Positions 4,982 to 37,600 of a stretch of 43,960 nt of DNA are shown piece after piece. Within the stretch, counting starts at the first letter, position 1. Every line of letters begins with the position of its first letter. The translations under genes and the position numbers were made by a program. Source of the DNA: a virus; IMG/VR virus record IMGVR_UViG_3300037246_000602, positions 1-43,960 of that record. One strand, 5' to 3'. The notes under the pieces were generated by a model that was given only the letters and a program-made list of their open reading frames with translations, had not been told where the DNA came from and searched no databases.

Positions 4982-5006
4982 AAATTCGTTAACGGTAGCT
5001 ATAGAC

Positions 5007-27813: not shown

Positions 27814-28587
27814 TTACTCAAACATTACTGATTGGTCTGGATCAACTTTAGATCTATTTTCATTTAACCACCAATCAAACATTTCCTTCCCGTCTGCCCA
27901 TCTATCTACAGAAACCTTTCCTTCAGATTTCCTTTTTTTGTGTAATCTAATAAATGCTTTTTCAAACGCATTCTTGTATCTGGGATATCTGTCAGCTTCT
28001 ATTTTCCTTTTATTGGACATGGGACACATCAAACACCCTAACCGCTTCCAACCTTCGTCATATAAAGAACAATATGGAATATTGTTTTGCTTTATGAATT
28101 CCCAAATGTCAGCGTCTTCCCACTCTATAATAACATTAAAATATCGTTTAGTTCTATCTTTATAACACGACTCTACCATCTTCCTGTTGGTTCTCTTGAA
28201 AGATTCCGCCCATCTTATTCCAGTTATAACCCTTCTGCCAGATCCGCCATTCTCTTTAAAAACCTTACAACACCATCTACTTTGTCTTAGAGGAAACCCT
28301 TTTTTGACCAACATGTGAAAAAAGCCATGTTCTGGATTATGTGTTTCAACGTCTTTATGAAAATCCTTAATAAATCTAACTAACTCAGGTGGATCAATAG
28401 TTGTATTATTATAATGTGCATCATATTTAACTCCTGCTCTATCAGCTAATGCTTTAATAACAACACTGTCTTTACCACCAGAAAAAGCTAAATAGTACCC
28501 TTCTTCTGGTTCAAATTCCTTGAGCCTTTTAATGGCCTTCTCAACTTTATCTTCATAACTAAACAATGTTTGTTCTTTTAGTGTCAT
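27814..28587 (-). CDS. PAPS/APS-reductase-like PP-loop protein
   Basis: 257 aa on the minus strand within otherwise plus-strand genes. SGGKDS at 36-41 is the PP-loop nucleotide-binding motif. Cys106-Cys107 (RWCC) and C185-LM-C188 match the CC...CXXC spacing that holds a [4Fe-4S] cluster in APS reductases and related PP-loop enzymes. Candidate roles are assimilatory sulfur reduction, DndC-like DNA phosphorothioation or tRNA thiolation. No dnd or cys partners are in the window. It has its own promoter (P3) and divergent orientation, so it behaves as an accessory cassette. Confidence 0.8.
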   Translation of the reverse strand: MTLKEQTLFSYEDKVEKAIKRLKEFEPEEGYYLAFSGGKDSVVIKALADRAGVKYDAHYNNTTIDPPELVRFIKDFHKDVETHNPEHGFFHMLVKKGFPLRQSRWCCKVFKENGGSGRRVITGIRWAESFKRTNRKMVESCYKDRTKRYFNVIIEWEDADIWEFIKQNNIPYCSLYDEGWKRLGCLMCPMSNKRKIEADRYPRYKNAFEKAFIRLHKKRKSEGKVSVDRWADGKEMFDWWLNENRSKVDPDQSVMFE

Positions 28588-32805: not shown

Positions 32806-32833
32806 TTGACAAATGACAAGTGTTGTGTATGAT
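32806..32833 (+). promoter_or_regulatory. promoter P2 for the replication region
   Basis: TTGACA 32806-32811, 16-nt spacer, TATGAT 32828-32833. The shared start-site element is at 32832-32847 in the same register as P1 and P3. Transcription would start near 32840 and run straight into the hairpin RNA. Confidence 0.7.
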
Positions 32834-32839
32834 GACATT

Positions 32840-32972
32840 ACATTAAGTTATTGATCTAGGACAATAACGAATCATGATTCAAAGACTTGAGGTTTGGACT
32901 CCTAGAACTTTCAAAATTGTTGCACTTACAGTGCATCTAACCTTGAAAGTGTCCAAGTCTCAAGTCTTTTTT
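32840..32972 (+). ncRNA. long-hairpin leader RNA/attenuator
   Basis: Stem 1 is 19 bp with two wobbles (32881-32899 with 32951-32969). Stem 2 is ACTTTCAA (32907-32914) with TTGAAAGT (32943-32950), stacked directly on stem 1 with a 7-nt 5' bulge. Stem 3 is TGCACT-TAC-AGTGCA (32921-32935). A T run (32967-32972) follows, so the rod is itself an intrinsic terminator. The ribosome binding site of the initiator gene starts ~4 nt later. It could be a stand-alone small RNA of ~130 nt or a read-through-controlled leader. Confidence 0.7.
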
Positions 32973-32985
32973 ATTTGGAGGAAGT

Positions 32986-33711
32986 ATGGCACAGCGAAGG
33001 ATGTTTAGTTTAAGAATAATAGGTTCAGCAAAGTTTTTAAAAATGCCTGTTTCGGTAAGAGAACTATATTTTCAATTGGGAATGAAAGCCGATGATGATG
33101 GGATAGTAGAAGCATATTCAGTAATGAAAGCAGTTGGTAGTACAGAAGATGATATAAAAGTATTATCTGCAAAGAATTTTATTAAAATTTTAAATGAAGA
33201 TTTAGTATCGTATGTTATGGATTGGACAGAACATAATTTAATTAGAGCCGACAGGAAAATAAATAGTATTTATAAAGACTTGCTACTTCAAATAGTTCCA
33301 GAGTGCCAATTATTAGAGCAAAAACCAAGAGCAGACACAGGGAAAGTAACTGGACGTCCAATGGACAACCAAAGGACGGCACAGGTTAGGATAGGTAAGG
33401 TTAGTTTAGGTAAAGATAGTATAGATATAGAGAAAGACGACAATAGTAATCCCCCTACCAACAGTCCTTTAAAAGAAAAAATATTTTTGCGCGTAAATGT
33501 TAAGATGACGCAGGATGAATATAGTAAGTTAGTTGTTAAATTTCCGGATATTGAGGCTAAATTGGACACTTTGTCTGAATATAAGTACAGTAAAGGGGTA
33601 AAGTACGCTTCAGACTATCATACTATATTAAGTTGGGCAAGGAAAGATGACAAGAAAACCAAACCTCAAACACAATACCCTGATCTTGCAAAGATGGGAG
33701 ATGAATATTAA
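32986..33711 (+). CDS. replication initiation protein, DnaD/replisome-organiser type
   Basis: 241 aa. The N-terminal winged-helix-like part (RMFSLRIIGSAKFLKMPVS ... DDDGIVEAYSVMKAVG) is typical of phage replication initiators. A flexible linker (~115-160) is followed by a C-terminal domain with SDYHTILSWARKDD, the usual end of this class. It would bind the origin and help load the helicase encoded 1 kb downstream. GGAGG lies immediately after the hairpin terminator. The 3' end carries a 19-bp direct repeat also found after the methyltransferase gene. Confidence 0.75.
   Translation: MAQRRMFSLRIIGSAKFLKMPVSVRELYFQLGMKADDDGIVEAYSVMKAVGSTEDDIKVLSAKNFIKILNEDLVSYVMDWTEHNLIRADRKINSIYKDLLLQIVPECQLLEQKPRADTGKVTGRPMDNQRTAQVRIGKVSLGKDSIDIEKDDNSNPPTNSPLKEKIFLRVNVKMTQDEYSKLVVKFPDIEAKLDTLSEYKYSKGVKYASDYHTILSWARKDDKKTKPQTQYPDLAKMGDEY
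33691..33709 (+). repeat. direct repeat left of the methyltransferase
   Basis: 19 bp (AAGATGGGAGATGAATATT), repeated at 34381-34399 with one mismatch. Together the copies bracket the methyltransferase gene exactly. Confidence 0.75.
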
Positions 33712-37054: not shown

Positions 37055-37600
37055 ATGTACTATGCTTTAATATTATTGCTAATGCTCACGACTTGTAAGA
37101 CAGAAATTTTAAAACCGAGTTATGGAAACTCTATCCCGGAGATGGAAGTAAGATACTTACAATTACAGGCCATGACAGGCAGAGAAGTTAGTCAGGTATG
37201 GGACAGAATTTTATTTAAATGCCGTTATAAATTAGGAGCAACAGGGCCGGACTTTTATGATTGTGGCACAGGGTTATGGACAGTGCTTCGTCATTTGGGA
37301 GCCGTGCACGAACTTATGAATGTTGAGGCATTGTTCAAGAAGTTAGGTAAAAAGAGAAAGAAACTAAAAGAAGTTGAGACTGGAGATATAATCATTTGGA
37401 AGTCTGTTAAACCGAAGTCAGGAAAAACAGTGAGGCATGTTGGTATGGTAGTTGACAAGAATTTAAGCTCAGGTATGATAAGATATAGGGATGTCAATGT
37501 CAAAGATAATGGAAGTGGTGATAATTGGGTTTCATTTTATAGTTCTAAACTGGATGGTGAGTACAATATGCCTAAGTGCTTATTTATGGGGTTTAATTAA
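37055..37600 (+). CDS. NlpC/P60-like peptidase, predicted lipoprotein
   Basis: 181 aa. Signal peptide with lipobox-like LTTC (11-14). Catalytic-type Cys70 in GPDFYDCGTGLW and His128 in VRHVGMVVD match the NlpC/P60 layout that cleaves peptidoglycan stem peptides. The usual DCSG is changed to DCGTG. It lies in the early region, far from the endolysin. A role in envelope remodelling or superinfection is possible. The start is ATG 37055 directly after the membrane peptide. Confidence 0.65.
   Translation: MYYALILLLMLTTCKTEILKPSYGNSIPEMEVRYLQLQAMTGREVSQVWDRILFKCRYKLGATGPDFYDCGTGLWTVLRHLGAVHELMNVEALFKKLGKKRKKLKEVETGDIIIWKSVKPKSGKTVRHVGMVVDKNLSSGMIRYRDVNVKDNGSGDNWVSFYSSKLDGEYNMPKCLFMGFN

Follow-up and report, generated by a model that had tools for sequence, protein, structure and literature searches.

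Results

The window (the whole stretch of DNA that was analysed, 43,960 nt) is a whole virus record, that of a phage whose portal belongs to the phrog_156 family and distantly resembles the portal of Burkholderia phage BcepMigl. Its replication operon opens with the gene of a DnaD-like helicase loader, the replication initiator (32986–33711, + strand; phrog_8489, E 4.5e-52), which is followed by genes for a DNA methylase and a DnaB-like helicase. The leader of this operon, described below, is preceded by genes of the same orientation. No integrase or repressor was found among the window proteins tested, which cover part of the ORFs. Elsewhere in the window, a phosphoadenosine phosphosulfate reductase-like gene (phrog_424; 27814–28587, − strand) lies on the opposite strand between the structural and early genes, and two opposed promoter-like sites, each with an 11/12 match, overlap within the ORF at 37055–37600 (37452–37479, +; 37503–37475, −).

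The leader begins with a predicted promoter, TTGACA-16-TATGAT (32806–32833, + strand), in which a −35 box (32806–32811) and a −10 box (32828–32833) are separated by a 16-nt spacer. It matches the consensus at 11 of 12 positions, as do three other sites in 16 kb, and places the predicted start of transcription near 32840. Downstream lies a rod-shaped terminator hairpin (32881–32969, +) built from an outer stem of 19 bp (32881–32899 with 32951–32969), a middle stem of 8 bp (32907–32914 with 32943–32950) and an apical stem of 6 bp (32921–32926 with 32930–32935). The final three nucleotides of the rod and the three that follow form a U-tract (32967–32972, +), after which only AUUU precedes the ribosome binding site GGAGG (32977–32981, +) of the initiator, whose ATG is at 32986. 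All of this agrees with a sequence-only reading of the locus, which had called the promoter, the 19 + 8 + 6 bp hairpin and a T-run 4 nt (ATTT) from the ribosome binding site exactly as we find them. A stable hairpin with an immediate U-tract is what defines an intrinsic (Rho-independent) terminator, and the predicted RNA fold is far more stable than that of shuffled sequences (−44.8 kcal/mol versus −23.9 ± 3.6; z = −5.8; 0/200 shuffles equally stable).

Between promoter and rod we identified a second element, absent from that earlier reading. A 5′ hairpin, P1 (32847–32868, +; GUUAUUG/CAAUAAC, 7/7 pairs), presents an 8-nt loop, AUCUAGGA (32854–32861), of which nucleotides 2–8, UCUAGGA (strand S1a, 32855–32861, +), can form 7 bp with UCCUAGA (strand S1b, 32900–32906, +). 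S1b is the 7-nt bulge between the outer and inner stems of the rod; it is the only large bulge there and is unpaired in the minimum free energy (MFE) fold. With an 8-nt loop of this composition, such a match would arise by chance at a frequency of about 1e-4, and the elements follow one another (5′ element, left arm, bulge, right arm) as in an H-type pseudoknot. In a crude shuffle test the window leader was not significant (p = 0.21), and the case for its pairing lies in the exact register of loop and bulge. P1 and the rod are joined by a linker that is a perfect 12-nt palindrome, GAATCATGATTC (32869–32880, +), which could be a protein site. The suggestion that the loops might be complementary to phage genes did not hold, as neither the 5′ loop nor the bulge has a 9-nt match outside the element; the complement of the 5′ loop lies inside the leader itself.

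Relatives of the initiator were collected from viral contigs and species genomes, and all leaders below belong to this set, which was searched by way of DnaD-like initiators. The initial pass, restricted to terminators near the start codon, gave the window leader and those of L004, L070 and L047, and in all four a 5′ element is complementary to the interior of the rod. The same plan was then read upstream of further initiators (L204, L210, L247) and recovered upstream of another by a complementarity scan (L135), and it was also seen before other early genes (L206, L331, L272, L265, L304, L288, L319, L286 with two leaders, a second copy in L004, and L079). Altogether about 30 leaders, from 27 phage contigs, have in common both the self-complementarity and the plan of promoter, 5′ element, rod terminator, U-tract, ribosome binding site and early gene. 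Among them, L079, L427 and one leader of contig G394 are weaker cases or needed completion by manual inspection. A leader usually heads the operon of the initiator, either directly or one to three genes away, and most DnaD-like initiators in the set have none. A search of 380 patescibacterial genomes added one further distant initiator.

Between leader subfamilies there is no detectable sequence similarity. The window gave no match to Rfam 15 at the gathering cut-off, 11 other member loci gave tRNA only, and no DNA-level relative of the window was found among GenBank phages. When 15 leaders were compared with GenBank phages, the matches were limited to short promoter, start-codon or downstream homing-endonuclease sequences. 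Six annotated phage genomes, five of them with a DnaD-like initiator, held no candidate at p ≤ 0.05, and a literature search of open-access PMC full texts found no description of such a leader. As only the pairing is conserved, this structured RNA class would be missed by sequence-based family searches.

Genes resembling homing endonucleases (GIY-YIG, HNH) lie immediately behind the leaders at L265:4484, L304:11397 and L004:5164; they were named from sequence and, for L304, also from GenBank matches. At L413:4037, L417:6160 and L418:7653 the position of the leader is constant and differing inserts (methylase-like, GIY-YIG-like and a small ORF) separate it from the initiator, so that the site immediately past the U-tract appears to be an insertion hotspot.

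Because a first loose scan for rods gave many chance matches, we added strand contrasts, shuffles and tests of self against cross pairing. Shuffling the 5′ part of the seven initiator leaders that had first been picked by their terminator, and not by self-complementarity, gave a combined p of 1e-10. Among candidates with a promoter and a rod, complementarity at p ≤ 0.01 was seen in 8/49 on the strand of the replication genes and in 1/47 on the other strand, and complements of at least 7 nt between 5′ loops and rod loops in 10/62 and 0/50, respectively (Fisher p = 0.002). For 19 leaders the self score was 11.3, versus 7.2 for all cross pairs, a descriptive comparison given that the set was partly chosen by complementarity. 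The crude shuffle test by itself was weak in the last set to be fetched (1/13 at p ≤ 0.05); the members of that set were recognised by loop register, and one of its subfamilies was later confirmed by covariation.

Contig G394, the phage of L288, carries three leaders with three different loop/bulge pairs. One precedes a group of small genes with an SSB-like gene, another the replication operon, and the third, on the opposite strand, a gene for a Rha-like regulator (the SSB-like and Rha-like genes being presumed from their sequence). The first two leaders, of the SSB region and the replication operon, share a ACAUGUGCAG..CUGC..UGUAG framework, the stem GCAG/CUGC, the flanks and the sequence past the U-tract, and both use nucleotides 2–8 of an 8-nt loop, the same geometry as in the window leader. 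Their loops, AGUCGAAA and CCUGAUCA, are nevertheless complementary solely to their own bulges, UUUCGAC and UGAUCAG, respectively. In a cross table of nine leaders self pairs reached 6–8 nt and non-self pairs at most 4. The RNA is not tied to an origin of replication, since paralogues are found ahead of an SSB region and of a gene for a Rha-type regulator.

Covariation, another of the checks proposed for the structure, was found in a sister subfamily, A5; the window leader has no close relative, and so its own copy offers none. A5 consists of six homologous leaders (L406, L416, L403, L411, L414 and L413) fetched after the class had been defined. Its structure comprises the P1 hairpin, the P2 rod, P3, P4 and two long-range helices, PK1, which joins the P1 loop to the strand separating P3 from P4, and PK2, which joins the linker to the P3 loop. 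All 240 of 240 cells are paired, and 11 pairs have changed on both sides, two of them in PK1 and two in PK2. Thus, in L414 the PK1 loop has gone from UGGUG to UGGAA and its partner from CACCA to UUCCA, while PK2, CUAGU/ACUAG, has become CAAGU/ACUUG in L413 and UUAGU/ACUAA in L414. When the partners were slid by 1–3 columns as a control, pairing fell to 25–52%. These compensatory changes represent few evolutionary events, yet they strike both long-range helices. A covariance model of A5 matched its own six members and none of the other subfamilies. As the subfamilies cannot be aligned, common descent is not established, and they may have converged on one design.

The order in which the pairings could form was followed in predicted folds. 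The MFE fold of the growing transcript contains the 5′ pairing in 19 of 19 leaders as long as the right arm of the rod is incomplete, and the full rod then displaces it; for the window leader this switch is predicted between 32955 and 32960, just ahead of the U-tract. Since the pairing forms first, it can compete with the terminator or shape it. Only 1–3 nt separate the 5′ element from the rod in L304, L272, L070 and L265, perhaps too few for the pairing to persist in cis alongside the full rod; this suggests alternatives rather than coexistence in the short-linker leaders, although a bent junction could allow both.

Discussion

That these leaders form a real class of structured RNA is well supported. 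How they are regulated is an inference. The sequence, the predicted structure, the recurrence of the plan and the covariation in the sister subfamily are results of the analysis; the start and end of the RNA, its termination, the direction of regulation and any feedback in trans are predictions. The best explanation, in which our confidence is about even, is that the leader is a transcription attenuator of the replication operon and that the loop–bulge pseudoknot is the regulated step. The sequence-only reading, which is supported in part, had offered a small RNA of about 130 nt or an attenuator that needs antitermination. The two are mutually compatible, and the comparative evidence favours a regulated leader or attenuator of early operons, because the same plan heads replication operons in unrelated sequence.

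A transcript from the local promoter would expose the 5′ hairpin first, then the left arm and bulge of the rod, and last the right arm and U-tract. By default it would end as a terminated RNA of about 133 nt; read-through RNA alone would carry the initiator gene. The 5′ loop could pair with the bulge as soon as the latter is made, ahead of terminator closure, and this pairing might either delay closure, acting as antitermination in the nascent RNA, or set the final fold. As each leader has a private loop/bulge pair, the finished RNA could also act in trans with self-specific feedback, pairing with new transcripts of its own operon, blocking the pairing in cis and so pushing them towards termination. 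The private pairs, including those of paralogues within one genome, fit such feedback. Counting against attenuation are the elaborate tertiary pairing, which is more than a plain attenuator needs, the short linkers of some leaders, the many DnaD-like initiators that have no such leader, and subfamilies that do not align.

A broader and more tentative proposal, which we regard as possible but doubtful, is that these leaders represent widespread undescribed lock-and-key attenuators of phages, sense-strand RNAs in which the pair of 5′ loop and terminator bulge is private and fast-evolving and the terminated RNA recognises new copies of its own transcript, thereby metering replication and other early operons. 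Such a system would need no antisense gene or protein, and several orthogonal pairs could coexist in one phage.

Several known systems resemble parts of this attenuator. In plasmids pT181 and pIP501, countertranscripts attenuate the transcription of replication initiators (PMC5703833), and there too the terminator lies just 5′ of the initiator ribosome binding site (4 nt between U-tract and GGAGG here) and, in pT181, an upstream leader pairing, the pre-emptor, competes with the terminator (PMC5703833). However, those plasmids are regulated by a countertranscript made from the opposite strand, and the target of the pre-emptor is the 5′ arm of the terminator (PMC5703833), whereas in the leaders described here the partner of the 5′ element is a bulge or loop within the terminator (in the window, the bulge at 32900–32906 and not an arm). 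A countertranscript was rejected for the window leader, as no minus-strand promoter site of at least 9/12 occurs from the rod to 150 nt downstream; weak minus-strand sites occur in 6/19 leaders. The CI RNA that confers immunity in satellite phage P4 is likewise a short RNA from the leader of replication genes, tied to premature termination and complementary to sites within that leader (PMC4825925), as S1a is to S1b over 7 bp. It arises, however, by processing of a primary transcript that is not translated, and its pairing partners are two separate sites, seqA and seqC (PMC4825925), whereas here both partners would lie in one predicted, intrinsically terminated hairpin RNA, in a phage with no integrase among the window proteins tested. 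Self-specific feedback by the leader RNA would be comparable in effect to that of the P4 CI RNA (PMC4825925) and of the pT181 and pIP501 countertranscripts (PMC5703833). In Gifsy-1, a phage leader gives either a terminated small RNA, IsrK, or a read-through mRNA, and the short form acts on the long one; IsrK differs in that its action is to switch on the translation of anrP and a small ORF, and the paper that describes it does not mention a pseudoknot (PMC4825925).

Of the other explanations, the one that survives best, although we consider it unlikely, is a stand-alone small RNA, stabilised by the pseudoknot, which would act in trans on a host RNA, another phage RNA or a protein, the next gene being incidental. 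The discrete product of about 133 nt predicted here and a fold more elaborate than a terminator agree with this, as do the L135 leader, whose start codon lies 108 nt past the U-tract, and L413, L417 and L418, where the RNA is retained while a methylase gene, a GIY-YIG gene or a small ORF separates it from the initiator. Nevertheless, in most leaders the ribosome binding site is just a few nucleotides past the U-tract, and there are at most three leaders per genome, each ahead of its own early gene. The window phage contains no 9-nt target for loop or bulge, and the loops vary while the frameworks stay, unlike a conserved targeting seed.

It is more improbable still that the rod is a plain intrinsic terminator, insulating the replication operon from upstream transcription and later passed by a phage-modified, antiterminated polymerase, with the 5′ hairpin incidental. 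Although the hairpin and U-tract are of textbook form and the upstream genes run in the same direction, this would leave unexplained why a private promoter sits right before the terminator, why loop–bulge complementarity recurs across subfamilies and why long-range helices show compensatory changes.

We give slightly less weight again to antitermination of the HK022 put or lambda nut type, in which the 5′ RNA domain would bind polymerase or a phage protein and carry it through the terminator. The put RNA of HK022 suppresses pausing and termination; it is not known to include a terminator or to form a lock-and-key with one. The position of the leader at the start of an early transcript, with a terminator immediately after it, would suit such a mechanism, as would the 5′ framework common to the two G394 leaders, but no sequence is conserved across leaders, contrary to a common binding partner, and the 5′ loop has its pairing partner in the terminator itself. 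The likeness to putRNA is that of a structured RNA which starts phage early transcripts and governs termination without a protein (PMC9378689).

Attenuation by a leader peptide, in which a ribosome translating a small ORF across the rod (44 codons in the window) would prevent termination, is very improbable and was rejected, since rod-crossing frames are not clearly commoner than chance (11/19 leaders versus 7.9/19 expected from shuffles), the window frame has no ribosome binding site and no peptide is common to the leaders. A type III toxin-antitoxin system of the ToxI kind was also rejected, the downstream gene being a DnaD-like helicase loader and not a ToxN-like toxin.

If attenuation by the loop–bulge pairing is correct, a compact RNA that recognises itself would control phage replication genes without the help of a second gene. 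This would account for the setting of copy number or timing in phages with no obvious regulator at this position, and the leaders would be natural orthogonal transcription switches. Because paralogous pairs occur naturally in one genome, the mechanism is directly testable by swapping loops and bulges.

Other structures were seen upstream of related genes. L003 has a GC-rich rod, GGCCCC..GGGGCC, about 30–100 nt before the initiator at 5001, with no U-tract on that strand. In Lachnospiraceae genomes (L109, L110, L107 and L136) a different conserved stem-loop, GCCCCTCTGCAAAGGGGC-like, lies upstream of DnaD-like genes.
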